The notes beneath the pieces were generated by a model, which worked only from the letters and a program-made list of their open reading frames with translations, searched no databases and was not told where the DNA came from. Shown here one piece after another: positions 1,316 to 40,627 of a DNA stretch of 41,743 bases (the stretch's first letter is position 1; each line of letters opens with the position of its first letter). Source of the stretch: Pseudobacteriovorax antillogorgiicola. GTDB lineage: Bacteria > Bdellovibrionota_B > Oligoflexia > Oligoflexales > RGVZ01. Location of the stretch: assembly GCA_945865565.1 (NCBI GenBank), contig CAMBEK010000002.1, positions 71,901-113,643 on the forward strand, in the 5' to 3' direction. The position numbers and the translations under genes are program-made.

Positions 1316-2830
1316 ATGGATATGACACCTCCAGACTCCAAAGATCAGAATCAATTCGACGTGATTGTCGCCGGTGCCGGTATCGCGGGGACCTTGGCAG
1401 CGCTGCGTCTTGCCGTCGGACATTTGGCCCAGACCAGTGATTTTTCGCCGCTGAAAATTTTGCTGTTGGAAAAGGAAGCCGTCCCGGGTGGGCGCTTGCG
1501 CAGCCTTGATGATGGGGACGAGCGCCCAGCGTGGGGCTACGGATTAAACGGAGTTTCGAAACCCCTGATCGAATTTTGGCAGCAGACCATGCGCTCGGAT
1601 CCGGATTCGGTTTGGGATCCGGACGGTTTTGCGGCCAAAGAACAGGACACGCTGGGCATACTGTCCGGCAGTGATTTGAGTACGTTGCCTTTGGAGCAGA
1701 TGTTTGGTGGCAAAGGGGCACGGGCCCTCGGCGGTATGGCCGCTGCCCGCCAATGGAATCATGTAACGGACATCTTAAGCGCTGGTGGCAAGGGAACTCC
1801 GACCGCCAAGGTTCAGGCTTTAGCGGCGGAAACTGCTGATTCTTCCGACGCCGGCGACAGCGAAGAGGCCCAAGATGTCGTTGAGACCAATGAACCGGAA
1901 TCAAAGGCCGATCAAAAAACGTTTGCGCAAGTATGGACAGAGTCCCGGAAAGCCCCTGCGGCCGTCGTTCTGGAGCAGTTTAGCTCTATGTTGGGTATCA
2001 CGGACTTGTGGTCAACCCCGCCGGACGCATTTCGTGAGCGTGTTGGGTACCACACTGGCCCTCTGAAGCGTGGCCCTTGGCAAGTTGCGATTGCCGAATC
2101 CCTGCAAAAATACGTCGATGCGGGAATCATCACGCTGACCACCGATTGCCGGGTCATGTCGGCCACTTTTGACGGCATACTTCCTGACCCATCTAAAAGT
2201 GCCGCGAGTTCTGCAAAGGTAGCCTTTGCCGAAGGGTCATGGCAGCTGACAACCACCAAAGGGGTCTTTGTTGCGCCGCGCCTGGTCGTCGCGCAGCCGC
2301 CGTGGCAAGGCTTGATGTGGCTGCCGAAACACTTTTGGCCGTCCTCCCTTTTGGCGATGGCCAGCAAGGTCAAACCAGTCAGTGCGGTGACGCTGACCGA
2401 ACGGATTGAAAAATCAGCGGCCGGAGATCTTCCGGACATCATCATGATCCCGGCGGAGGGCGTGCAGGCCATTCGCTCCAGTGAAGATGAGATCACGTTC
2501 CAGGCGACAATTGATTTTGAAATTTCAGTGCAAGCACCCGAAGTCGTTAAAGCCGTAAAACGATTGAAGCGCGCTCGCAAAAAACTTTTAGCGGCTCGTG
2601 CCGGATGCATGTCAGAAAATGAACGCATTGCTCTCGTGACAGTGGCTTGGGGGCAGTCTGCAGTGGTATCCGAAACACGATTGCTGCAGCGGATGGCAAA
2701 GGCCAATCTTGGCTCAGGAAATCTGGCATTCTGTGGCGATTGCTATGGTGCCAGTTACGTTGGCGACCAAAACGTGATCAAATCCGTTGTCTCGGCAACC
2801 AATATCATTGGAAAAAGTCTGCAACCATGA
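1316..2830 (+). CDS. FAD-dependent amine oxidase/protoporphyrinogen oxidase-type oxidoreductase
   Basis: This 504-residue protein opens with a dinucleotide-binding Rossmann motif (VAGAGIAG, near residue 20) followed by LLEKEAVPGGRLRS, the arrangement of the flavin amine oxidase/phytoene desaturase superfamily. The C-terminal NLAFCGDCYGASYVGD matches the second FAD-contact region of that fold. An acidic, low-complexity insert spans about residues 167-200 and is probably a loop. Substrate is unknown. It starts 6 bp after the mnmC-like gene and its stop overlaps the folD start (ATGA), so the three are probably co-transcribed. It lacks the DAO-type features expected of the MnmC oxidase half, so it is not a simple split MnmC. 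Confidence 0.75.
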   Translation: MDMTPPDSKDQNQFDVIVAGAGIAGTLAALRLAVGHLAQTSDFSPLKILLLEKEAVPGGRLRSLDDGDERPAWGYGLNGVSKPLIEFWQQTMRSDPDSVWDPDGFAAKEQDTLGILSGSDLSTLPLEQMFGGKGARALGGMAAARQWNHVTDILSAGGKGTPTAKVQALAAETADSSDAGDSEEAQDVVETNEPESKADQKTFAQVWTESRKAPAAVVLEQFSSMLGITDLWSTPPDAFRERVGYHTGPLKRGPWQVAIAESLQKYVDAGIITLTTDCRVMSATFDGILPDPSKSAASSAKVAFAEGSWQLTTTKGVFVAPRLVVAQPPWQGLMWLPKHFWPSSLLAMASKVKPVSAVTLTERIEKSAAGDLPDIIMIPAEGVQAIRSSEDEITFQATIDFEISVQAPEVVKAVKRLKRARKKLLAARAGCMSENERIALVTVAWGQSAVVSETRLLQRMAKANLGSGNLAFCGDCYGASYVGDQNVIKSVVSATNIIGKSLQP

Positions 2831-19257: not shown

Positions 19258-20889
19258 TCACTTCACACCGGTCAGGTCTGGCGCGGGTGGCAAGCTCGAA
19301 TTTGACGAAGAAATTAGTTCAAATCCCGCTGTGCCTTCGTTGGTCATTGCACTGTTGTTGATTGTGTAGACGCCATCTGAACCTTGGGTGAAACATTGGA
19401 CTGCCACATTATTAGTGTGTTGGCGGTAGGTCCACTCATCTGCCGTCGTCGCGCTGGCGGAGTCCACTGTCGGGACGTACATGTTTATTGTCTGGTTGTT
19501 GCGGCTGGTGGCATAAAAGTTTCCATCAACGTCGCTTGTGGGGTTGCCTTCCGTGTCCGTACAGGGGGGGGTGGCCGCTCCGCTATCCGTCCCGCAAGAG
19601 AATGGGTGGTACGATTTGTCCGGGGCTATGGTGGATCCGATTTTCATGGCCTTGCGGATGCTTCCGCCAGAAAAGGCTCCCGACGATGAGCATCCCGACA
19701 ACAAACCATCAGAAGCAGCGTCCATTTTGAAGTTAAACCCACGCGTCGACTCCTCGTAATTGGCGCCCGGATTTTGCCAGTAGGAGAAATTACCGGCGTT
19801 GGTCTCTGGATCCATGTTGAAGGAAACGGCCAAGATGCCGTTGGCGGCATCGTTTTGCTGCGCATAGGTCGCGCCTGTGGTCGGGTTGACGTATTCGCCG
19901 TTGGCATTGGTGCTGACGTTCAGATTCAACTTGCCGTCGGAGTCCACGGCGTCAGCCGAGATGTCCTTATTCATCGCAGCCGTCAAAAGACGATACTTCA
20001 CACGGCCAGCAGAGCGTACGTAATTAATCGTAACGATCCGCTCCATGTTGGCGCCGCTGAAATCCTTACTGCGGCGCATGACGACACTGCCTTCGAATTC
20101 ACTGTTGTCCGCATTCGTGGGTTTGTGGGTCAGCGTGATCTTCTCGGTCGGGTCATTCACAGCCGGTGGTTGATTCGGTGCAGAGGGACGAGTCATCTCG
20201 ATGTGAGTTACAAAGTTGTCGCCGACCTTGGTAATCTTTGCGCTTTTAAACGGTAAGTTTGCCGGGTCTTTTCCGGCGGCCGTGATGGCGGCATCCATGA
20301 TCGCCTTGAAATCGACTTCTCCGCCATCGGATGTTGGCGCACCTTGCCCAGCCTTCTTGGCTTGGCAAAGCATCATCTGCACCATGCCAAGCGTGCGGTC
20401 GACCATGCCAGTGATGCGTTTCACTTGCGAACGCGTGTAGGTCACCATGCAGGCTTCGTTGGTTACGGTATTAGAAGTGCCTGTCTTCGTGCCGCTGACA
20501 AAATTCGAGCCGTCCGTCAGGTAAATCATTTCTGAATCGAACTCGTAGCAACTTTCCTGCTGCAACGTTCCGTCTGGCTTGGAAAGGGAAGCCGGAAGGC
20601 AGCTGTCTGCCTCACCGCGGATCAGTTTGCCAGCTTCTTCGTTCTTAACACGAGCGCTAGGCTCGCGATCTTCTCCGGCGACCAGAGACGTTGATGAATT
20701 TGTCTGCGGTGCCACGGACAGCGACAGACCCATCGGATAGCTCATCAACAAGGCGCTTGTGTCCGTTGAACTATCACTGGAATCATCGTTATTCTTGCTG
20801 CAGTTTATTGCTGCCGCAGCCGCTGTTAAAACCACTGCTGCGATCGCGATCTTGCTCCGCGTTTGTGGAGACAATAGAATGATCCTCAT
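19258..20889 (-). CDS. Large secreted lipoprotein, function unknown
   Basis: A 543-residue protein with a clear signal peptide (basic start, long Ala-rich core) ending in AAINC, then an Asn/Asp/Ser-rich linker of about 20 residues typical of surface lipoproteins. The body has scattered Cys (about ten), Asn- and Gly-rich strands and a segment KIGSTIAPDKSYHPFSCG. No family is recognised. The ATG has GAGG 8 bases upstream. A TATAAA-like element about 40 bases further upstream could be its -10 box, but no good -35 is seen. It is convergent with the TonB-like gene. Confidence 0.8.
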   Translation of the reverse strand: MRIILLSPQTRSKIAIAAVVLTAAAAAINCSKNNDDSSDSSTDTSALLMSYPMGLSLSVAPQTNSSTSLVAGEDREPSARVKNEEAGKLIRGEADSCLPASLSKPDGTLQQESCYEFDSEMIYLTDGSNFVSGTKTGTSNTVTNEACMVTYTRSQVKRITGMVDRTLGMVQMMLCQAKKAGQGAPTSDGGEVDFKAIMDAAITAAGKDPANLPFKSAKITKVGDNFVTHIEMTRPSAPNQPPAVNDPTEKITLTHKPTNADNSEFEGSVVMRRSKDFSGANMERIVTINYVRSAGRVKYRLLTAAMNKDISADAVDSDGKLNLNVSTNANGEYVNPTTGATYAQQNDAANGILAVSFNMDPETNAGNFSYWQNPGANYEESTRGFNFKMDAASDGLLSGCSSSGAFSGGSIRKAMKIGSTIAPDKSYHPFSCGTDSGAATPPCTDTEGNPTSDVDGNFYATSRNNQTINMYVPTVDSASATTADEWTYRQHTNNVAVQCFTQGSDGVYTINNSAMTNEGTAGFELISSSNSSLPPAPDLTGVK

Positions 20890-27782: not shown

Positions 27783-30700
27783 TTACATCGAGCGCCGGTA
27801 CTTTCCGCCCACCCGGTAAAGGGTATCGGTAATTTCTCCGAGACTCGCATGCCTGACCGTCTGCATTAAAGCCGCGAAAGCGTTGCCCCCGCCAATCACC
27901 GTATCGGTGAGCATTTTCAAAGCAGCGTCGCGTTTTGCATGGTTTGACTTATGGAAGTCATTAAGTCGCGTCAATTGCTTGTCTTTTTCTTCGTATGAAG
28001 CCCGTGCCATTTCAATCTCAGGGCGAACATATTCGCCGCTGATCACTTTCGGGTTCAGGAACATGTTCACGCCAACGATCTCGAGCTCGCCAGAGTGTTT
28101 CTTGCCCTCATAATAAAGGCTTTCTTCTTGAATTTTGTTGCGTTGGTACTGGGTTTCCATCGCACCCAGAACACCGCCCCGGGATGATATGCGCTCAAAC
28201 TCTTGCAGGACAGCCTCTTCGACGCGGTCGGTCAGAAGTTCCAGGAAGAACGATCCCTGGTTGATGTTCTCGCAATGGTTGAGCCCAAATTCCTTGTTGA
28301 TGATCAACTGAATTGCCATGGCGCGACGAACGCTTTCTTCGGTCGGTGTTGTGATCGCCTCGTCGTAAGCATTGGTGTGCAGTGAATTGCAGTTGTCATA
28401 AAGCGCCATCAGCGCCTGCAGGGTTGTTCGGATATCGTTAAAGTCGATTTCCATCGCGTGCAGCGAGCGGCCTGAAGTCTGAATGTGATACTTGAGCATC
28501 TGGCTGCGTTCACTGGCACCGTAACGGTCTCGCATGGCGATGGCCCAGATCCGCCGTGCGACACGCCCAAGAACTCCGTATTCAGGATCGATGCCGTTGC
28601 TGAAGAAGAAGGACAGGTTCGGCGCAAAATCATCAATTTTCATGCCGCGCGTCAAATAATATTCAACATAGGTAAAGCCATTGGCCAAGGTCAGTGCGAT
28701 CTGGGTCACCGGATTCGCGCCAGCCTCTGCGATATGATATCCAGAAATGGAAACGCTGTAATAGTTTCTGATTTTTTTCTCGATGAAGAACTGCTGGATG
28801 TCCCCCATCATCTTGAGGGCAAATTCTGTTGAGAAAATGCAGGTGTTTTGCGCTTGGTCCTCCTTGAGGATATCCGCTTGGACCGTGCCGCGAACCATTT
28901 GTATGGTTTTCTCGATGATCCTGTTGTGGGTCTCGGGATCTGGGATCTTCCCGTGTTCGGCGACATGCCGGTCGATCTGTTGATCGATGGCCGTGTTCAT
29001 ATACATCGCCAGAATGATCGGCGCTGGGCCATTGATCGTCATACTGACACTGGTGTTGGGGGCGCAGAGGTCAAAACCGTTGTAGAGGACCTTCATGTCT
29101 TCAAGTGTTGCAATTGATACGCCCGATTCGCCCACCTTGCCATAGATGTCAGGACGCTTTGCCGGATCGCTGCCGTATAAAGTGACGCTATCAAAGGCAG
29201 TCGACAAACGTTTTGCATCAGCATTCTTCGACAGATAATGAAAGCGTTCGTTGGTCCTTTTCGGTCCGCCTTCGCCGGCAAATTGCCGCTGTGGGTCCTC
29301 GCCAGTCCTGCGAAAGGGAAAAACGCCGCCGGTGAATGGAAAGCTGCCGGGGACATTTTCGCGGGTCAAAAATCGAACGACATCGGCCTTGGTGGTGAAG
29401 GCGGGCAGCGCGACCTTCGGTAAGTGTTGATGCGAAAGGGTTTCAAAGCTGGCTTGGACTTTGACGTCTTTTCCGCGAACCTGATACGTGAAGGAATCAC
29501 TGGCATAGTTGCGGCGGGTGTCGTCCCAGGCGTCAAGCTGAGCCAGGATTTTTGGCGGGATTTTTTCCCATAATGCCTTGGCGCTGGCTTCCAGTTTGGC
29601 CGCTGTGATCTCTTCTTTTCCGTCCATCAATAGGGCTGCTGCGCGGTCCAATGCCTCAGCGTCGCGTGTGATCTGGACAAGGCTTTGGTTTGCGGCGTGA
29701 TATTCGCGGACCGTGCGGGCAATGTCTGCGAGATAAGTCGAGCGACCTGCAGGAATTAAGCTCTCCCGGCGGGTTGATTCGATGGCAACAGGCCGTTGAT
29801 CGGAGGAACGAAATTGTGTTGCTTCCGATTTTTTACCGGCTTTTTCATTGATCTTGGAGACAAGGGCTCTGTAAAGCCCGTTTGTTCCATCATCATTGAA
29901 TCGACTTGCGATGGTTCCAAAAACTGGAAACTCATGGTCTGCCAAGCGTTCGCCTTTAAACCGGGAGCGGCGCAGGTTGGTCCGGACATCGCGGATTGCA
30001 TCGAGCGATTGCGCACGCTCAAATTTGTTGATTGCAATGAAGTCGGCAAAGTCCAGCATGTCGATCTTTTCGAGCTGGGTCGCTGCCCCGTATTCGGCTG
30101 TCATGACATAAAGCGTCAGGTCAGAGACATCCAAAATGCCAGTGTCACCTTGGCCAATCCCGCTGGTCTCGACGATGATCAAGTCGAATGACTGGGTTTT
30201 CAAAAGGGCGATAGCATCGCGCGTGACGGTGGCGATTTCCTTGCCAGATCCGCGGGTGGCAAAGCTACGCAGGAAGATCCTCTGATCGCTCGCGGAATTG
30301 AACCGAATCCGGTCACCGAGCAAGGCGCCGCCGGTTTTTTTCTTTGATGGGTCAATGCAGATCAGGCCGATGCGTGCATCGGGATTGTCCCAAAGTAAAC
30401 GCAGCAGCAATTCATCAGTCAGTGAGCTTTTGCCGGCGCCCCCCGTGCCGGTGATCCCAAGGACGGGGGGCGGCTGGTCTGCTTTTTGGTGGTCCGGTTT
30501 TTTGTGGTTGATCGGACCATTGGCTTTTAAAAGATGGCTGACCGCCTCATCATGGGAGACTTTGCCGCTTTCAAGCAGGGTCAAGGCCCGGGCGAGTTGG
30601 TTGACGGGGTTGGCATCTTGTCCGGGCCAAGAGGTGATTTCCCGGTCGGCCAATTGGAGCATGTGGCCGATAATCCCGTCCAGCCCGAGCTTGGAGCCAT

Positions 30701-31091
30701 CTTCGGGGCTGTAGATCTTGGTGACGCCGGCAGATTCAAGTTCAGCGATTTCCTTGAGGGTGATAACCCCGCCTCCACCGCCAAAAATCTTGATGTCCCG
30801 GCCGCCACCTGCATCCAGTAACTGCCTGACGTATTTGAAGAATTCCATGTGCCCGCCCTGGTAACTGGAGAGCGCGATGGCGTGGGCATCCTCTTGGATG
30901 GCGGCTTCGGCCACTTCGGCCGCAGAGCGGTTGTGACCAAGGTGGATGACTTCAGCGCCACGGGCCTGTAACAGGCGACGCATGATATTGATGCTTGCGT
31001 CATGACCGTCGAACAAGGCGGTGGCGGTGATGAAGCGCAACTTATGCCGCGGTGTATAGGATTGCAGGGAACTTGTTTGCATTGGGCCCAT
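27783..31091 (-). CDS. icmF: Fused isobutyryl-CoA mutase IcmF (B12 enzyme with built-in G-protein chaperone)
   Basis: IcmF interconverts isobutyryl-CoA and n-butyryl-CoA with adenosylcobalamin. The 1102 residues contain three parts: a B12-binding domain (about 15-150) with DGHDASIN, where His30 would bind cobalt; a MeaB-like GTPase (about 210-420) with GTGGAGKSS and NKFE; and a mutase barrel (about 560 to end) with GVFPFRRTGEDP, in which a Phe replaces the Tyr seen in methylmalonyl-CoA mutase, and LHTNAYDEAITTPTEES. The fusion order and the Phe favour IcmF over methylmalonyl-CoA mutase. The base-recognition motif is NKFE rather than NKxD. It is divergent from a proline dehydrogenase; the gap is only 48 bp. 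Confidence 0.93.
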   Translation of the reverse strand: MGPMQTSSLQSYTPRHKLRFITATALFDGHDASINIMRRLLQARGAEVIHLGHNRSAAEVAEAAIQEDAHAIALSSYQGGHMEFFKYVRQLLDAGGGRDIKIFGGGGGVITLKEIAELESAGVTKIYSPEDGSKLGLDGIIGHMLQLADREITSWPGQDANPVNQLARALTLLESGKVSHDEAVSHLLKANGPINHKKPDHQKADQPPPVLGITGTGGAGKSSLTDELLLRLLWDNPDARIGLICIDPSKKKTGGALLGDRIRFNSASDQRIFLRSFATRGSGKEIATVTRDAIALLKTQSFDLIIVETSGIGQGDTGILDVSDLTLYVMTAEYGAATQLEKIDMLDFADFIAINKFERAQSLDAIRDVRTNLRRSRFKGERLADHEFPVFGTIASRFNDDGTNGLYRALVSKINEKAGKKSEATQFRSSDQRPVAIESTRRESLIPAGRSTYLADIARTVREYHAANQSLVQITRDAEALDRAAALLMDGKEEITAAKLEASAKALWEKIPPKILAQLDAWDDTRRNYASDSFTYQVRGKDVKVQASFETLSHQHLPKVALPAFTTKADVVRFLTRENVPGSFPFTGGVFPFRRTGEDPQRQFAGEGGPKRTNERFHYLSKNADAKRLSTAFDSVTLYGSDPAKRPDIYGKVGESGVSIATLEDMKVLYNGFDLCAPNTSVSMTINGPAPIILAMYMNTAIDQQIDRHVAEHGKIPDPETHNRIIEKTIQMVRGTVQADILKEDQAQNTCIFSTEFALKMMGDIQQFFIEKKIRNYYSVSISGYHIAEAGANPVTQIALTLANGFTYVEYYLTRGMKIDDFAPNLSFFFSNGIDPEYGVLGRVARRIWAIAMRDRYGASERSQMLKYHIQTSGRSLHAMEIDFNDIRTTLQALMALYDNCNSLHTNAYDEAITTPTEESVRRAMAIQLIINKEFGLNHCENINQGSFFLELLTDRVEEAVLQEFERISSRGGVLGAMETQYQRNKIQEESLYYEGKKHSGELEIVGVNMFLNPKVISGEYVRPEIEMARASYEEKDKQLTRLNDFHKSNHAKRDAALKMLTDTVIGGGNAFAALMQTVRHASLGEITDTLYRVGGKYRRSM

Positions 31092-32360: not shown

Positions 32361-32387
32361 GGCCTTGACGAGGCCCTGTCTTTAATT
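32359..32387 (+). terminator. Intrinsic terminator of the proline dehydrogenase gene
   Basis: A 7-bp stem (32359-32365 with 32371-32377), a 5-base loop and then GTCTTTAATTTT. The stem begins inside the stop codon. It lies before the convergent secreted-protein gene. Confidence 0.7.
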
Positions 32388-33134
32388 TTCGGAAACGTTC
32401 AAGATCGAACTCACCGAGCGGCCATTGAGGCTCCGGGTGTGCACGAGCATTCTTCCGCGGGTCAGCCGGCTGGCATCGAGTTCAACATCTAAACTGAACG
32501 GGATCTCGATATCGGCGCAATTGCCTTTGCGCATTGCCATTACCGGGAGGATCTCAACCGTGTCCGGAAAATATTTTGTATCGACATGTTCAATGTACAT
32601 GCAGCTGTTGGTGAAGCGGCCGCGCAGAGTGGCACTATGCTGATCCGTGGCCGTTTCTTTTTGATCAAGGATCAGGTCTTCTACCGGAGCATACAGGAAA
32701 TCATCGGGATACTTGGACTGTGCCTTCTTAACCGATAAGGACCCGATTTGGTGCCCATCGCCATTTTGGATTCTGTAATTTCCACCTGGCAACATTCCAA
32801 GCTCGACTTCCTGGGTGTATGGAACGAGTGCTTCGATGCACGGGACGTTGAAATAATTAGCCCGGGCCTGAATGCTGATGGTTTTATGTTCGTCGTTGAC
32901 GTGGACTTCTGGCTGAGTGAGCCGATAGCATCCGTCTGGGAGATAGCCATCCAAAATAACGACTGAGCTGTCGTTGCTGTCGAGGCTCTTGGGGGTGAAA
33001 ATCCTGGTGACCTTGATGTTTCTGACTTCGTCCGGGTCGGAGGAGGTCGTTGCGAGGACGATTGGGTTAAAAGCAAGGCCCGAGAACGCAAATGCTCCGG
33101 CGGCCAGGACAGACATGATGCTTGTGTTTCTCAT
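32382..33134 (-). CDS. Secreted protein with two tandem copies of a Cys-containing domain
   Basis: A 250-residue protein with a signal peptide (to about residue 29, cleavage near LATTSS). The body is two similar halves. The first has LDGYLPDGCYRL, then a PC, then VPYTQEVELGMLPGGNYRI; the second has LRGRFTNSCMYIEH, GNC, then IPFSLDVELDASRLTRGRM. Each half has two Cys likely to pair. No family is recognised. AAGGAG lies 6 bases before the ATG. It lies 93 bp downstream of murJ on the same strand. Confidence 0.8.
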   Translation of the reverse strand: MRNTSIMSVLAAGAFAFSGLAFNPIVLATTSSDPDEVRNIKVTRIFTPKSLDSNDSSVVILDGYLPDGCYRLTQPEVHVNDEHKTISIQARANYFNVPCIEALVPYTQEVELGMLPGGNYRIQNGDGHQIGSLSVKKAQSKYPDDFLYAPVEDLILDQKETATDQHSATLRGRFTNSCMYIEHVDTKYFPDTVEILPVMAMRKGNCADIEIPFSLDVELDASRLTRGRMLVHTRSLNGRSVSSILNVSEN

Positions 33135-34925: not shown

Positions 34926-35072
34926 GAAATATCCTTTGTCTGGATTGTCCCTGTTTGCGAATGTTGCTGGCAAGAAGATTGCGTACGCTTGTGTGAATGG
35001 GCTCGTTTCAGGTAAGTTTCGGGAGCACCATCAGGCAGCAAATTATTTTCCTTTTCAGGGGTGGAATTGTCC

Positions 35073-38000
35073 GTGCTTAATCTCCAGAAGCGTTGGCCTG
35101 TCATCCCCTTCTCTTTGTCTCTGTCCTTGGTTGCTGTTGTGTTGTTGACCGCCTTGGGTCCTGCGGCCCGGTTTCCCGGTGAGCCAGGCAGTGACCCATG
35201 GATGAGGCGCCCCAATGATCCAGAATATGCGAACACATGGCAGTATTTTTCGCACATCCCCTACGATCAGATCACTCAGGTTCCTGAAGAGCAAGCTCGC
35301 CTTGGGTCCGGCATGCATGTCGACCGTGCATGGCAGATTCATACTGGAACGCCGGCGACCAAAATTGCAGTGCTTGATTCAGGGATACTCTGGGACTCAG
35401 CGGACCTGCGCGAGCGTTACGCGCTCAATGTGGGAGAATTGCCACTTCCGTCGGGGGCGAACAACCACGATGCCAATGGAGACGGCCGCATTTCGCCTCT
35501 GGACTGGATCGCCGACCCAAGGTTGGCGGTGCTGGCGCGCAAAGGTTATTTGACGCCAGAGGACTTGATGAACACGTTCTCCGACGGAATTGACTCCGAT
35601 GGGAATGGATTCGTTGATGACATTTCCGGTTGGGATTTTCTTGAGAATGACAAAAATCCAGCAGATCGGACGGAATTCGGTCACGGAACCATGGAAGGCA
35701 ACATGTCTGCTGGTGCGGTGAACAACGGCATCGAGTCAGCGGGTGTTTGTGGCAATTGTTCCGTAGCATTTCTCAGGGTCAACGATAGTTTCATGGCCGA
35801 CAGCAACAACATAGCCGCTGCTGTACGATATGCCGTGGATAATGGCTTTTCTGTGGTGCAGGCTGCGCTCGGGCCGTTCAACCTGACACCAGCCCTTCAC
35901 GCGGCAGTTGAATATGCATGGCAAAACGATGTTGTCGTGGTGGCCACGGCGGGTGATGAAAACAGCTTTCACAGCAATCAGCCCGCGGTGCTCGATCAAG
36001 TCCTCTATGTCAATGCATTGCGTTACGACGACAAAACACCCCAGGAATCCTCCAGCTATCTGGCGTTCAACAATTGCAGCAACTTTGGTGCCCGCCTTGA
36101 TGTCAGTGCTGCTGGTAAGTCCTGCTCGTCGGAGGCAACGGCCCGTTTGGCGGGAATTGTTGCCTTGGCCAAATCTTTCGCCAGTCAAACAGGGCGGCAT
36201 TATTCAGCAGCAGAAATCATCGCCACAGTGCGGCATACCGCCGATGATATCAATCTTGGTGATGCCGGTCCTTCGTCTGGGCGCATGCCATCAGCAAAGG
36301 GTTGGGATTCGACCACGGGCAATGGCCGAGTGAATGCGACAACATTGCTGCAGGCGATTCAGCGCGATGAAGTATTTCCTGGGGGACGAATTGTTTCTCC
36401 TGGATGGTTTGATGTCATTCAAGGGCGGGATGCTGATCACTCTGAAATTCCTGTGAAGGTATCCGTACCTCTTCCACGAACCGGGCGCCTTCAGTTGCGC
36501 CTCAGCATCCAAAAAGGTGTGGAAGAGGAAGGGGCTGAGTTAGTTGAAGTGGCTGCAACGCCGATCCTTACCGGTAATTTTGACGATCAATTGGCGGTGA
36601 TCGACTTTAATTTTTTGTCCCGACTCAAGGCTTCGCCGTTTGAAAATAGCCGCTACCGCGATGCATGGACAATGATTCTCGATGTGGACGATTTATCGGG
36701 CAGGATCAGTCGCGTGCGCCGGACGATATTTCGCCTCGACCAATCTGGGTCGTCCGTACAAATTTTCCGCTCTCCGAATTCAAACCATTCATCAGTAGAA
36801 AGTGCGCCACTATTTTACGATATCGATGGCGACGGACGGGATGAACTGGCTTTTGCCGATGGAGGCGGACTTGTTCATCTGCTGGATTCAAATGATGGAA
36901 CGGTACCTTCCTCCACAGGCGACATTTCGGGCGAACGGCCAGGGTTTCCTGTGGCTATGCCACTTTCACGGTTGGCACCGGCCTGGCCGGGTGGGATTTT
37001 TTCAGCCCTTGCTGCTGGAGAAATCGAAGCCGGAAAACCAGTTCTGGTGGCGGTCTCCATTGAAGGCCACGTGGCGGCGATCGATCGCAACGGGAAGTTT
37101 CTTCCAGGTTTCCCGGCCAGTCTTCCGCTGGCAGATTTTTCAGGTGTAAACCGTGGGGCAGACCCTTCCTTTGGTGTTCTGGCTGCGCCGGTTCTTGCGG
37201 ATATCGATCGCGATGGTCGCGCTGAGATTGTCGTGGTGGGTTTGGATGGTTTTGTTTACGTGTTTCGTTTTGATGGTTCAATGCAGCCGGGGTTTCCAGT
37301 ACCGGTAACGTACCAGGGAGCATTGGCGAAGATTGTTTCGTCGCCGGCGCTATACGATATCAACGGCGATGGTGCTCTTGATATCATCTTCGGAACTGCG
37401 CATTACAGCCAGACGGCAGGTTTTTTATTTGCTGTAAGTGGACGCGGACTTTTGGACAGCAATGTCATCTTGCCTGGGTTTCCTACTATGATTCCTGTGC
37501 TCCGCAATAATATCCTACCCTTGATCGGCACCGGAATTGCGACGGCTCCAGCCATTGGTGATGTTGATGGTGACGGGGTCGTTGACATCGTTTCCCATGG
37601 GTTTGCTGGAAAAGCATACCTGCTAGGTCTCGATGGAAAATTAAAAAGGTCCATGTTCATGACGCCATCTCCGTCAAGCCCGGCCGTAAATGAAGAAGAG
37701 ATGGTCGTTGGCTTTGGTCAGCCTGCGATTGCGGATCTAGATGGCGATGGGACAGGCGATATCTTTGCACCTGGTGTGGGCCGAAGGATCCTCATGAATC
37801 TGTTGATGGGGGGGCGCCGCATTCCCTACCATTATTTGGTCGGAAGCTGGTCCGGGCTAACAGGCATCATGAATCCGTCATTCCCGAAATTTTTGACAGA
37901 CACTCCCATTATGGGCTCTCCTATATTTGCCGACGTGACGGGGGATGGGCGTGCGGAGGTTATTGCTGCTGATGCTGGATTCGAACTCCATGGTTTTGAC

Positions 38001-38279
38001 GTTTCAGTTCATCCTGGTGCTGCAGGCAATGGTCTAATCCAGCCGGAGGCAGCCGGATTCCCCAAGCGGACTGGCGGCTGGATGTTGGGCAGCCCCGCGG
38101 CCGGGGACTTTGATGGTGATGGCCGGGTGGATATCGCTGGAGCAACCAGAGAAGGTTTTGTTTTCATCTGGCCGACGCCAGGAAAAATATCGAATGTTGG
38201 GCGCCATGGCTATCATTACAAGGGCAATATTCAGAGAACCGGAGTCTGGTTGCCAGAGCATTCAAGGGGCACAAGGTGA
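35073..38279 (+). CDS. Secreted subtilisin-like (S8) protease with a seven-repeat FG-GAP propeller
   Basis: About 1068 residues. A signal peptide/anchor (FSLSLSLVAVVLLTALG) precedes an S8 domain. Asp102 (AVLDSGIL), His204 (FGHGTMEGN) and Ser353 (KSCSSEATARLAG) fill the triad positions. The usual oxyanion Asn is Asp295 (ATAGDEN), and GTSxAxP around Ser is degenerate. Two Ca-binding loops (NGDGRISPLD, SDGNGFVDD) sit inside the protease part. The C-terminal half has seven D-x-[DN]-x-DG repeats (at about 36820, 37200, 37357, 37560, 37735, 37932 and 38106), as in FG-GAP/VCBS integrin-like propellers. GTG 35073 is chosen since AGGGGTGG lies 8 bases upstream; GTG 35061 is the alternative. It is coupled to the next gene. 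Confidence 0.88.
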   Translation: MLNLQKRWPVIPFSLSLSLVAVVLLTALGPAARFPGEPGSDPWMRRPNDPEYANTWQYFSHIPYDQITQVPEEQARLGSGMHVDRAWQIHTGTPATKIAVLDSGILWDSADLRERYALNVGELPLPSGANNHDANGDGRISPLDWIADPRLAVLARKGYLTPEDLMNTFSDGIDSDGNGFVDDISGWDFLENDKNPADRTEFGHGTMEGNMSAGAVNNGIESAGVCGNCSVAFLRVNDSFMADSNNIAAAVRYAVDNGFSVVQAALGPFNLTPALHAAVEYAWQNDVVVVATAGDENSFHSNQPAVLDQVLYVNALRYDDKTPQESSSYLAFNNCSNFGARLDVSAAGKSCSSEATARLAGIVALAKSFASQTGRHYSAAEIIATVRHTADDINLGDAGPSSGRMPSAKGWDSTTGNGRVNATTLLQAIQRDEVFPGGRIVSPGWFDVIQGRDADHSEIPVKVSVPLPRTGRLQLRLSIQKGVEEEGAELVEVAATPILTGNFDDQLAVIDFNFLSRLKASPFENSRYRDAWTMILDVDDLSGRISRVRRTIFRLDQSGSSVQIFRSPNSNHSSVESAPLFYDIDGDGRDELAFADGGGLVHLLDSNDGTVPSSTGDISGERPGFPVAMPLSRLAPAWPGGIFSALAAGEIEAGKPVLVAVSIEGHVAAIDRNGKFLPGFPASLPLADFSGVNRGADPSFGVLAAPVLADIDRDGRAEIVVVGLDGFVYVFRFDGSMQPGFPVPVTYQGALAKIVSSPALYDINGDGALDIIFGTAHYSQTAGFLFAVSGRGLLDSNVILPGFPTMIPVLRNNILPLIGTGIATAPAIGDVDGDGVVDIVSHGFAGKAYLLGLDGKLKRSMFMTPSPSSPAVNEEEMVVGFGQPAIADLDGDGTGDIFAPGVGRRILMNLLMGGRRIPYHYLVGSWSGLTGIMNPSFPKFLTDTPIMGSPIFADVTGDGRAEVIAADAGFELHGFDVSVHPGAAGNGLIQPEAAGFPKRTGGWMLGSPAAGDFDGDGRVDIAGATREGFVFIWPTPGKISNVGRHGYHYKGNIQRTGVWLPEHSRGTR

Positions 38280-39814
38280 ACAGTAAATTTTTTGGAATAG
38301 TAATCTTTGCTTTGAGTTTTGCCTCTGTTGCGATTGCCCAAAACACGCAAAATGCACTGAAGCTAGATTTGACTCAAGATGGCCTCGATGCGGTTGCTCG
38401 TGAAATCCAGTCTCGTTTTATGCACGATATTGACTCGCGTGAAATTAATAACATCCACAGGATCCTTCCTGATGGCTGGATTTTGGATACGCAAGGGCTG
38501 CAGTACTCGGTTGATTTTAAAAAACTGAATCTAAAGGCAACCAAAGAAGGTGTTCGCGTTGAATTTGCGGTTGATGGTGTCACACTGCATGCCGATTCAA
38601 TCAAATTGTCGAAGCCGTGGTTGTGGTGGAACTTGAAATCCAATTGCACAGGCGTCGACGTGAATGTTTCAGGGCCCACGGAACTGGCGTTGTCAGTTTT
38701 GTTGATGCCGGTTGTGACTGAGGCAGGCAATTTGGACGCCGACCTGCTTGGATTGGAGTTTTCGATTGATCCTGAAGGCTACGTCGTTCGCGGTCCCACA
38801 GAATGCTCTGGGGTTTTGGGCTTTGGTGGTTACATGCGCGATGCCGTTGCCGGAGTTCTTGCAGGAGCCAGGGAACAGGTCGCTGATATTGTCAGGCAAC
38901 AGGTTCTTGAGCTTCTGCCGGAGGCCGTCGCTGAAATTGATGGCATGTTGCATCAATCCTTTGAGTTGCATGTGGGTTACCCTGGTGTTCCATTTTCAGA
39001 GGATTTGTTGCTTGCTGGTGCACCTTCTGGGATCGAAGTTCAGGATGGCCGTCTTGTTTTTCTCATGAGTTCCGAGGTGTCAGCGGTCTTGAAAGAAAAT
39101 TTGCTTGATGCGAGGCAAAAGGAGCGGAAGGGGAGACCCATTCCCCCTGGAATCGCCTTTGGTTCTGTGGGGCTGAATAAAAAAGTTATAAATGACGCTT
39201 TAGAAGCATTGCATCCAATGGCGCAAAGGGATTTTGAGCTGAAACCGGATATGATTCCACAGCTTGGTCAGTACCTTGATACTGATACGTTGGCCTCGAT
39301 TTGGCCCGACTTGAATGAACTGGAATTGGATACGTCGGATGTCCGGGCATTTATCAGCTGTCCCGGTCTTCCCTCCGTCGAAACTTTAATAGTTGACGCT
39401 GCTGAAGGGTCAGCTCGTGCCGTGAAATTTGCGGTTCAGATTCCTGACGCCAGATTGTCAATTATGGTTAAGTCCAATGGATCTTGGATGGACTACGCAA
39501 ATATCAATGTGCGCTTGTCTGTCCCATTGGCCATCGACATGAAAGACGGGGAAATGGAAGTGCAGCTGAATGATGTTGCCGTGGTGAGTATCGGTGGTGG
39601 GTGGGCCTCAGGCTATAAGCCTTCAGTAGATATATTTGAGTCCGACCTCGCCCAAGTCATAGTGAAGAGTGTTTTCGACATGGTTTTCCTGCAAGGTCCG
39701 TTTTTGCGGCTGCTAGTTCCGGTCTACGATTTCGGCGGTGGGCGAATGGGGTTTTCCAATCCACAAACCGATGCCCCGTATTTTTCGGTAGATCTTGTCT
39801 CAGCGAAACGCTGA
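38276..39814 (+). CDS. Secreted protein coupled to the subtilase; possibly TULIP/BPI-like lipid-binding
   Basis: A 512-residue protein with a clear signal peptide (cleaved after AIAQ). Its GTG start overlaps the protease stop (GTGA), so the two are translationally coupled. The body has long amphipathic strands (QYSVDFKKLNLKAT, VRVEFAVDGVTLHADSIKL) and long helices, with an internal AREQVADIVRQQVLEL-type helix; the strand pattern resembles the TULIP (BPI/LBP-like) lipid-binding fold, but this is an inference from pattern alone. It has a few Cys. No family is recognised. It ends 3 bp before the convergent bamD stop. Confidence 0.7.
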   Translation: MNSKFFGIVIFALSFASVAIAQNTQNALKLDLTQDGLDAVAREIQSRFMHDIDSREINNIHRILPDGWILDTQGLQYSVDFKKLNLKATKEGVRVEFAVDGVTLHADSIKLSKPWLWWNLKSNCTGVDVNVSGPTELALSVLLMPVVTEAGNLDADLLGLEFSIDPEGYVVRGPTECSGVLGFGGYMRDAVAGVLAGAREQVADIVRQQVLELLPEAVAEIDGMLHQSFELHVGYPGVPFSEDLLLAGAPSGIEVQDGRLVFLMSSEVSAVLKENLLDARQKERKGRPIPPGIAFGSVGLNKKVINDALEALHPMAQRDFELKPDMIPQLGQYLDTDTLASIWPDLNELELDTSDVRAFISCPGLPSVETLIVDAAEGSARAVKFAVQIPDARLSIMVKSNGSWMDYANINVRLSVPLAIDMKDGEMEVQLNDVAVVSIGGGWASGYKPSVDIFESDLAQVIVKSVFDMVFLQGPFLRLLVPVYDFGGGRMGFSNPQTDAPYFSVDLVSAKR

Positions 39815-39817
39815 GTT

Positions 39818-40627
39818 TTATTTCAGGGCCGCAGCGTTTGCTCGCGCCTTTGCGGCCTCTTCGCGAATCTGCGCTGGGGTTTTGTCGCGGCTGAACAGGT
39901 TGTTTTCCTGATCAGGGTCGATTTCCTTTTCTTTTGCTACTTTATCCATGGCATCGGCGGCTGCAAGCAATGCGGAGCGACGGATTGAAGGAAACTCAGG
40001 GAAATCCTTGTCCACCTGGAGAAAACGGAAGGCGCAAGAATGATAGATTTTTTTACGGCAATAAAAGTTGCTGATGAAAACAGCGTGTTCTGCGAGTCGC
40101 TTGCGCCCAGTTAGGATTAGATTCCGGGCATCGCTGGCAAATTTGCTCTCTGGATGTGCCGCCAAGAGTTTGTGCCATTCATCGATCGCCTTGGCGGTAA
40201 ACTCTTGTTCACGGTTGACCTCCTCCGGTGCATCCTTCCAGTAAGCCTCCCCCACCCTGAACATCGCAAAATCATTTTGTGGATGCTTCGGGTGGAGTTT
40301 GACGAACTGTTCGTAAGAAACAACAGCTTCGGTATAGCGACCCAGTTGAAATTGCGCATTGGCAATGAGAAGCTCGGCTTCGGTGGCATACTGGCTGTAA
40401 GGGAATCGGGATTTGAATTCCCCGAGCTTGGAAATTGCAATTTCGAAGCTCTCGTCATCGTAAGGTTCCTTCGCGTGTGCAAAAGAAGCTTTGGGGTCAT
40501 TTGGATCCAGTTCCTTTTCCGTGCAGCCAGGAAGGCTCAATAGGATGGCGAACACCATCCCGCAAAGTATGGGAATCATGGTCGATTTTGATTTATTTCT
40601 CATCTGTTCCAGGGCGCTGGAGAACAT
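39818..40627 (-). CDS. bamD: Outer-membrane assembly lipoprotein BamD
   Basis: BamD is the essential lipoprotein of the BAM complex that inserts beta-barrel proteins. The signal peptide ends in LSLPGC. The mature part has tetratricopeptide-like helices: FEIAISKLGEFKSRFPYSQYATEAELLIANAQF, with LGRYTEAVVSYEQFVKLHP and FAMFRVGEAYW, is the usual BamD core in shortened form, and ends in a charged tail (AREEAAKARANAAALK type). The start is set at 40627 from AAGGA at spacing 7; 40603 gives a shorter, equally plausible signal peptide. It is divergent from a TonB-like gene with 71 bp between. Confidence 0.88.
   Translation of the reverse strand: MFSSALEQMRNKSKSTMIPILCGMVFAILLSLPGCTEKELDPNDPKASFAHAKEPYDDESFEIAISKLGEFKSRFPYSQYATEAELLIANAQFQLGRYTEAVVSYEQFVKLHPKHPQNDFAMFRVGEAYWKDAPEEVNREQEFTAKAIDEWHKLLAAHPESKFASDARNLILTGRKRLAEHAVFISNFYCRKKIYHSCAFRFLQVDKDFPEFPSIRRSALLAAADAMDKVAKEKEIDPDQENNLFSRDKTPAQIREEAAKARANAAALK

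Follow-up and report, generated by a model that had tools for sequence, protein, structure and literature searches.

The DNA analyzed here (hereafter, the window) is a 41,743-nucleotide stretch of contig CAMBEK010000002.1 from an Oligoflexales metagenome-assembled genome (MAG) of 2.5 Mb, with 44 contigs and about 90% completeness. Its forward strand holds a coupled pair of genes, the first encoding an S8 subtilase that continues into an FG-GAP propeller region and the second, referred to below as the partner, a protein resembling the TULIP lipid carriers BPI and LBP (Table 1). The first-pass annotation had reported both open reading frames and a 4-base GTGA overlap between them, all of which were confirmed in the sequence: the stop codon of the subtilase overlaps the GTG start of the partner, and an AAGGGG lies 6 nt upstream of this second GTG. 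The start of the subtilase is placed at GTG 35073 rather than at 35061, because an in-frame stop cuts off the latter in the nearest relative (G001). Residue numbers are nonetheless counted from GTG 35061, so that D106 would be D102 when counted from 35073. Both proteins carry putative Sec-type signals, by which they would be exported. Intact reading frames, conserved motifs, and a conserved overlap across independent genomes show that the pair exceeds chance. The hairpin at its end is of a kind no commoner in the region than in shuffled sequences.

Table 1. Features of the subtilase-partner pair, in coordinates of the window.
Feature	Position	Strand	Basis and remarks
S8 subtilase with FG-GAP propeller region, predicted secreted	35073..38279	+	1068 aa, GTG start; open reading frame, Pfam
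Subtilase signal peptide (approximate)	35073..35170	+	By eye: basic N-terminus, hydrophobic core, small residues near ..GPAA
Catalytic Asp D106	35376..35378	+	Invariant in 6 homologues
Catalytic His H208	35682..35684	+	Invariant FGHGT, 6 homologues
Oxyanion Asn replaced by Asp, D299	35955..35957	+	Aligned to thermitase/1dbi; Asp in all 6 homologues
CSSEATA replacing GTSxATP	36123..36143	+	Nucleophile S357 at 36129-36131; E at subtilisin 222, A/G at 225
FG-GAP/DxDxDG propeller region	36792..38240	+	Pfam, motif scan; 7 intact Ca-type loops, 1 degenerate
Coupling junction	38264..38279	+	AAGGGG Shine-Dalgarno-like site, GTGA stop/start overlap
Partner, predicted secreted two-domain BPI/LBP-like TULIP protein	38276..39814	+	512 aa; hhalign, Foldseek, VIA
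Partner signal peptide (approximate)	38276..38338	+	By eye: MNSKFFGIVIFALSFASVAIA-Q
N-terminal TULIP-like domain	38339..39070	+	Full-length hhalign; Cys pair C124/C177
C-terminal TULIP-like domain	39134..39811	+	hhalign against BPI C-half, P 3.1e-4; VIA against 1ewf
Terminator-like hairpin and T-rich tail, end of pair	39799..39823	+	CTCAGCGAAACGCTGAG then TTTTATTT

The first protein is placed in family S8 because of its domain match and its catalytic triad. Pfam Peptidase_S8 (PF00082) matches it with an E-value of 1.4e-20 (74.2 bits, with a cut-off of 21.8), and the catalytic domain aligns with 1dbi at 5.7e-16 (about 1e-15, thermitase/1dbi type). The triad stands in its DSG, HGT, and S contexts, whereas the usual oxyanion Asn and GTSxAxP are replaced. 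When aligned with thermitase and 1dbi, AGN becomes AGD and SGTSxATP becomes SCSSEATA, which in subtilisin numbering corresponds to N155D, G219C, T220S, M222E, and P225A (Gly in the second genus described below). D106, H208, D299, S357, and the CSSEAT motif are invariant in six of six homologues, the following residue being Ala, or Gly in the second genus. A shifted alignment at the oxyanion position is excluded by the AGN/AGD context, which fixes the register. Both replacements (AGDEN and CSSEATA) had been read in the first-pass annotation and proved to be fixed in the clade. A wider comparison within the phylum (58 genomes searched) gave no full canonical active site for the subtilase: its six copies are altered, and the assignable S8 proteins of the same phylum have the canonical Asn and GTS, some rows being unassignable at one or both positions. 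Judged by these residues, the protein is a divergent S8 homologue and not a canonical active S8 peptidase. The names mycosin, PatA, and QhpE were rejected, as their models match the S8 domain far below their cut-offs.

The 11-residue windows that surround the triad residues show a conservation of 0.67, higher than the 0.47 of the catalytic domain (p about 0.03), which speaks modestly in favour of retained catalysis. PC2 is an accepted S8 member despite its missing oxyanion Asn. It carries Asp at this position, and changing this Asp to Asn has no measurable effect (PMC4182778). Asp is also the oxyanion residue of the sedolisins, acid proteases related to subtilisins (PMC6278154), and by analogy with these two examples an oxyanion Asp is compatible with activity. 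Both are distant from the subtilase by sequence and differ from it in other respects, since PC2 comes with a prodomain and a chaperone, 7B2, and the sedolisins (S53) use a Ser-Glu-Asp triad instead of Asp-His-Ser. An activation like that of PC2 had been suggested for the subtilase, but prodomain removal as in convertases found no support: Pfam detects no Inhibitor_I9 domain in it, and an I9-type zymogen was set aside for this reason. Compared with the S8A enzymes of the thermitase/1dbi type, the subtilase shares Asp-His-Ser and differs by its oxyanion Asp, its CSSEAT[A/G] motif, the lack of a detected I9 domain, its long FG-GAP region, and the coupled TULIP gene. The change P225A is, besides, one of the two that define subtiligase (engineered subtilisin S221C/P225A, PMC7921005). 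By this analogy, the Ala or Gly at the Pro225 position may allow transferase or ligase chemistry, although the nucleophile is Ser and not Cys, and no ligase claim is made.

The main competing explanation starts from these same residues, and proposes that the subtilase is a dead or single-turnover scaffold, with a use of the fold like that of PCSK9, so that the pair would form a non-enzymatic complex capturing lipids at the cell surface. The alteration and fixation of both the oxyanion Asn and GTSxAxP, the lack of an Inhibitor_I9 match in Pfam, and the presence of FG-GAP propellers, which are binding modules, would all fit such a scaffold. However, Asp, His, and Ser are invariant through the second genus, with surroundings conserved above average, and triad residues are usually lost in pseudoenzymes; this explanation is considered somewhat unlikely.

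The region that follows the catalytic domain matches FG-GAP_3 (PF13517, 4e-21 over five stretches) and FG-GAP (PF01839, 2e-11), and consists of repeated units with DxDxDG loops, as in FG-GAP or integrin-type propellers. Its description as a seven-repeat propeller holds for the intact loops, found at residues 587, 714, 766, 834, 892, 958, and 1016, but leaves out an eighth near 651 that is degenerate in the window copy and intact in the second genus; this number counts loops and not blades. Judging by these motifs, the propeller would depend on calcium. The subtilase of the second genus (G007, L046 2268-5468) has in addition a His/Ser/Gln-rich insertion in the propeller (GHSQSQSQGHSLGHSQSH), absent from the genus copies. 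A trypsin-family serine protease joined to FG-GAP modules has been described (PMC2605481), and no statement of an S8 domain with FG-GAP was found in the passages searched.

The partner was initially described as a protein of unknown family, which remains true for Pfam and NCBIfam, where no family was found, but not at the fold level. A HMMER search of PDB with the partner gave no relatives, the Pfam LBP_BPI_CETP models matched none of ten family members at E-values up to 5, and PF02886 gave only scattered sub-threshold matches across the phylum, none of them at partner loci. A profile of the ten family members (A1) was then compared by hhalign with a profile of BPI, LBP, and CETP, whose rows follow PDB chains, the human BPI sequence being near-identical to PDB 1ewf over all 456 residues. 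The two profiles aligned with a score of 46.5 (P 4.1e-5) over 385 collinear columns, from residues 27-468 of the query to 4-410 of BPI, and with P 4.5e-7 in global mode. Decoys reached maxima of 23.2 for column shuffles, 35.2 for shuffles of 20-column blocks, and 22.6 and 23.3 for reversed alignments, and 18 unrelated proteins of the window scored 22.1 or less. When split, the halves favoured the matching half of BPI (C-C P 3.1e-4, N-N P 0.012), compared with 0.049 and 0.29 for the crossed pairs.

The structure prediction called for in the first-pass annotation pointed in the same direction, in spite of its low confidence: the predicted local distance difference test (pLDDT) score of the AlphaFold models was 36.8 for the whole partner and 45.2 for the C-domain, with only four usable sequences. 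Their coordinates were not interpreted, and only the coherence of their matches compared with controls was used. In Foldseek, both models had LBP, BPI, SPLUNC1, and other TULIPs on top. In VIA-align, BPI (1ewf) was matched with Z 9.5 and a root-mean-square deviation of 3.8 over 156 residues, and LBP with Z 8.2; the first 21 PDB entries were TULIPs according to their titles, and the first non-TULIP, an Hsc82-Aha1 complex, had Z 4.5. The whole partner model gave incoherent low-score matches with a viral structure library used as control. Because sequence-profile and structure-based evidence agree, the partner is very probably a two-domain TULIP of the BPI/LBP/CETP kind, placed by its profile in the TULIP superfamily and not in the Pfam BPI/LBP/CETP family. 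This similarity strongly suggests that the early guess of a lipid-binding partner is right, and the protein would bind lipid.

Like BPI, LBP, and CETP, the partner is a predicted secreted protein of about 460-510 aa whose two TULIP-type domains lie in tandem and in matching order. It differs from them in being bacterial, acidic rather than cationic, encoded beside a subtilase, and without a significant HMMER match to their Pfam models. Its cysteines C124 and C177, present in every family member spanning both positions, form a candidate disulfide that is not at the BPI disulfide positions. The N-terminal domain of BPI is cationic. In the partner, on the other hand, the computed isoelectric point is 4.6 and the net charge is -16 for the N-domain and -11 for the C-domain. 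This acidity therefore disfavours a BPI-like killing through LPS (lipopolysaccharide), which was set aside, and is neutral for lipid transport. In a related explanation, the TULIP would be a BPI-like weapon binding LPS on prey or on other bacteria, and the protease would be its co-effector. The full-length resemblance of the partner to BPI/LBP, in profile and in fold, agrees with it, but the charge is opposite to that expected and the producer probably bears LPS too, since it has LpxC, making this role very improbable.

Several bacterial TULIPs are on record, including YceB/DUF1439, DUF4403, DUF2140, DUF2993, and P47/OrfX2 (PMC6791001, PMC5507252), of which DUF4403 is a full-length BPI-like protein (PMC6791001). 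The partner very probably shares the bacterial TULIP or BPI-like fold with DUF4403, YceB, DUF2140, and DUF2993 but does not match their Pfam models and, unlike the listed bacterial TULIPs, its family is confined to some Oligoflexales within the searched phylum. It can also be likened, by description only, to the bacterial BPI-like structure A0A2D5ZNG0 (PMC10584675).

The 4-base overlap is kept at five of five readable junctions (G000-G003 and G007), which represent four species of one genus and one of a second genus; it reads GTGA in the window and in the other copies of the same genus (L067, L068, and G002), and ATGA in the second genus (G007). In a sixth genome (G006) the subtilase is interrupted by the contig end and the junction is unreadable. 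The identity of the second-genus pair to that of the window is 47% for the S8 protein and 21% for the partner, indicating that the partner evolves faster. The subtilase clade comprises six genomes and a single family, while the partner family is found in 11 of the 58 phylum genomes, all from one order. A degenerate-pattern search of a public collection, based on the closer partner alignment, matched only three genus relatives, all MAGs, two of them titled Oligoflexales bacterium (partner identity 89% and 66%) and one Pseudobacteriovorax (69%); their isolate names read as freshwater origins. A tblastn search of plasmids gave no match.

Within the genus, the pair sits between murJ and bamD/tonB. 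In the second genus, the neighbours are instead SprT-like, acyltransferase, and pseudouridine-synthase-like genes (named by eye). The two genes have thus remained side by side through a change of context. The adjacency, which the first-pass annotation had proposed as a test, is therefore conserved beyond close relatives and across altered neighbourhoods, as a two-gene module. It also bears on the simpler possibility of co-expression only, in which a secreted protease would scavenge and the lipid carrier would act apart from it, both in nutrient uptake, with no shared complex or substrate. Partner relatives do occur alone, and co-expression by itself explains an operon; yet the 4-base coupling in all five cases, across genera and changed neighbourhoods, suggests more than shared regulation, and the altered active site is not of the ordinary digestive type. 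Co-expression only is thus deemed unlikely.

A similarly low probability is given to a role in outer-membrane or periplasmic lipid homeostasis, with the TULIP handling lipids between the membranes and the subtilase as a quality-control protease. The organism has LpxC and so probably LPS, the bacterial TULIPs YceB and DUF4403 are located in the envelope (PMC6791001), and the pair adjoins murJ and bamD within the genus. This position is, however, lost in the second genus, and most phylum genomes are without the partner family, so that a core envelope function is not indicated.

The explanation preferred here, which is given about an even chance, is that the translationally coupled pair exports a subtilase-propeller and a BPI/LBP-like TULIP that both act on the same target. 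The two proteins would reach the periplasm or cell surface through their Sec-type signal peptides, where the TULIP would hold a lipid or other hydrophobic ligand and the propeller would stabilize the subtilase and bind either the TULIP itself or a surface or glycan. With its intact Asp-His-Ser and an acidic oxyanion pocket (N155D, M222E), the subtilase would make restricted and probably conditional cuts, for example at low pH, either in a substrate associated with lipid or in the TULIP itself. Joint action outside the cell membrane is probable because the pair stayed together while the surrounding genes changed; the physical interaction, the restricted or pH-dependent catalysis, and the substrate are what we infer beyond this. 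A more specific proposal, quite doubtful at this stage, is that the acidic-pocket subtilase is gated by pH or by the lipid-loaded TULIP and forms with this BPI-like carrier an undescribed protease-lipid-transfer complex.

Several observations weigh against the shared-target explanation. In Kex2, the Asn-to-Asp change sharply lowers activity (PMC4182778). Genes in one operon need not encode proteins that bind each other, and partner relatives without an upstream subtilase (G004, G009, G013, G026, and G028) stand alone in other Oligoflexales, indicating that the partner family does not need the subtilase; for a further relative (G037), the upstream side ends at a contig edge. As for the TULIP assignment, the hhalign P-value weakens to 0.0026 with another column rule, the N-domain alone matches BPI weakly, and the pLDDT scores are low.

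Among the relatives lacking the subtilase, a divergent copy (16% identical; L010/L011 in G004 and G009) lies beside a glycyl-tRNA-synthetase-like gene and a convergent gene for a secreted-looking protein (names by eye). Another homologue (L048; G028 contig C103, 62828-64389) is found in two pieces, one covering profile positions 3-111 and the other 123-503, pointing to a frameshift or to splitting of the gene.

Besides the pair, the window holds a gene (32382-33134, reverse strand) for a secreted-looking protein of 250 aa with no Pfam family, located between a proline dehydrogenase gene and murJ; among the genus relatives, at least G001 has a counterpart of it next to murJ. Also on the reverse strand, 27783-31091 encodes a fusion of B12-binding, MeaB GTPase, and methylmalonyl-CoA-mutase-type domains according to Pfam, with an IcmF-like architecture. 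Pfam assigns no family at 1e-5 to the predicted products, 504 and 543 aa long, of two long candidate open reading frames at 1316-2830 (forward) and 19258-20889 (reverse).

The open-access literature searched yielded no account of TULIP and subtilase genes being coupled, or of the Asp-oxyanion/CSSEAT signature. Full-length bacterial BPI-like proteins have been recognised only recently and are mostly without known function; for one of them, the conserved link to a subtilase with a fixed, unusual active site now provides a defined partner and a biochemical context that can be tested. The Asp oxyanion together with CSSEAT represents a naturally conserved case of a subtilase without the canonical oxyanion Asn, and the pair as a whole bears on the working and the origin of BPI-type lipid carriers.

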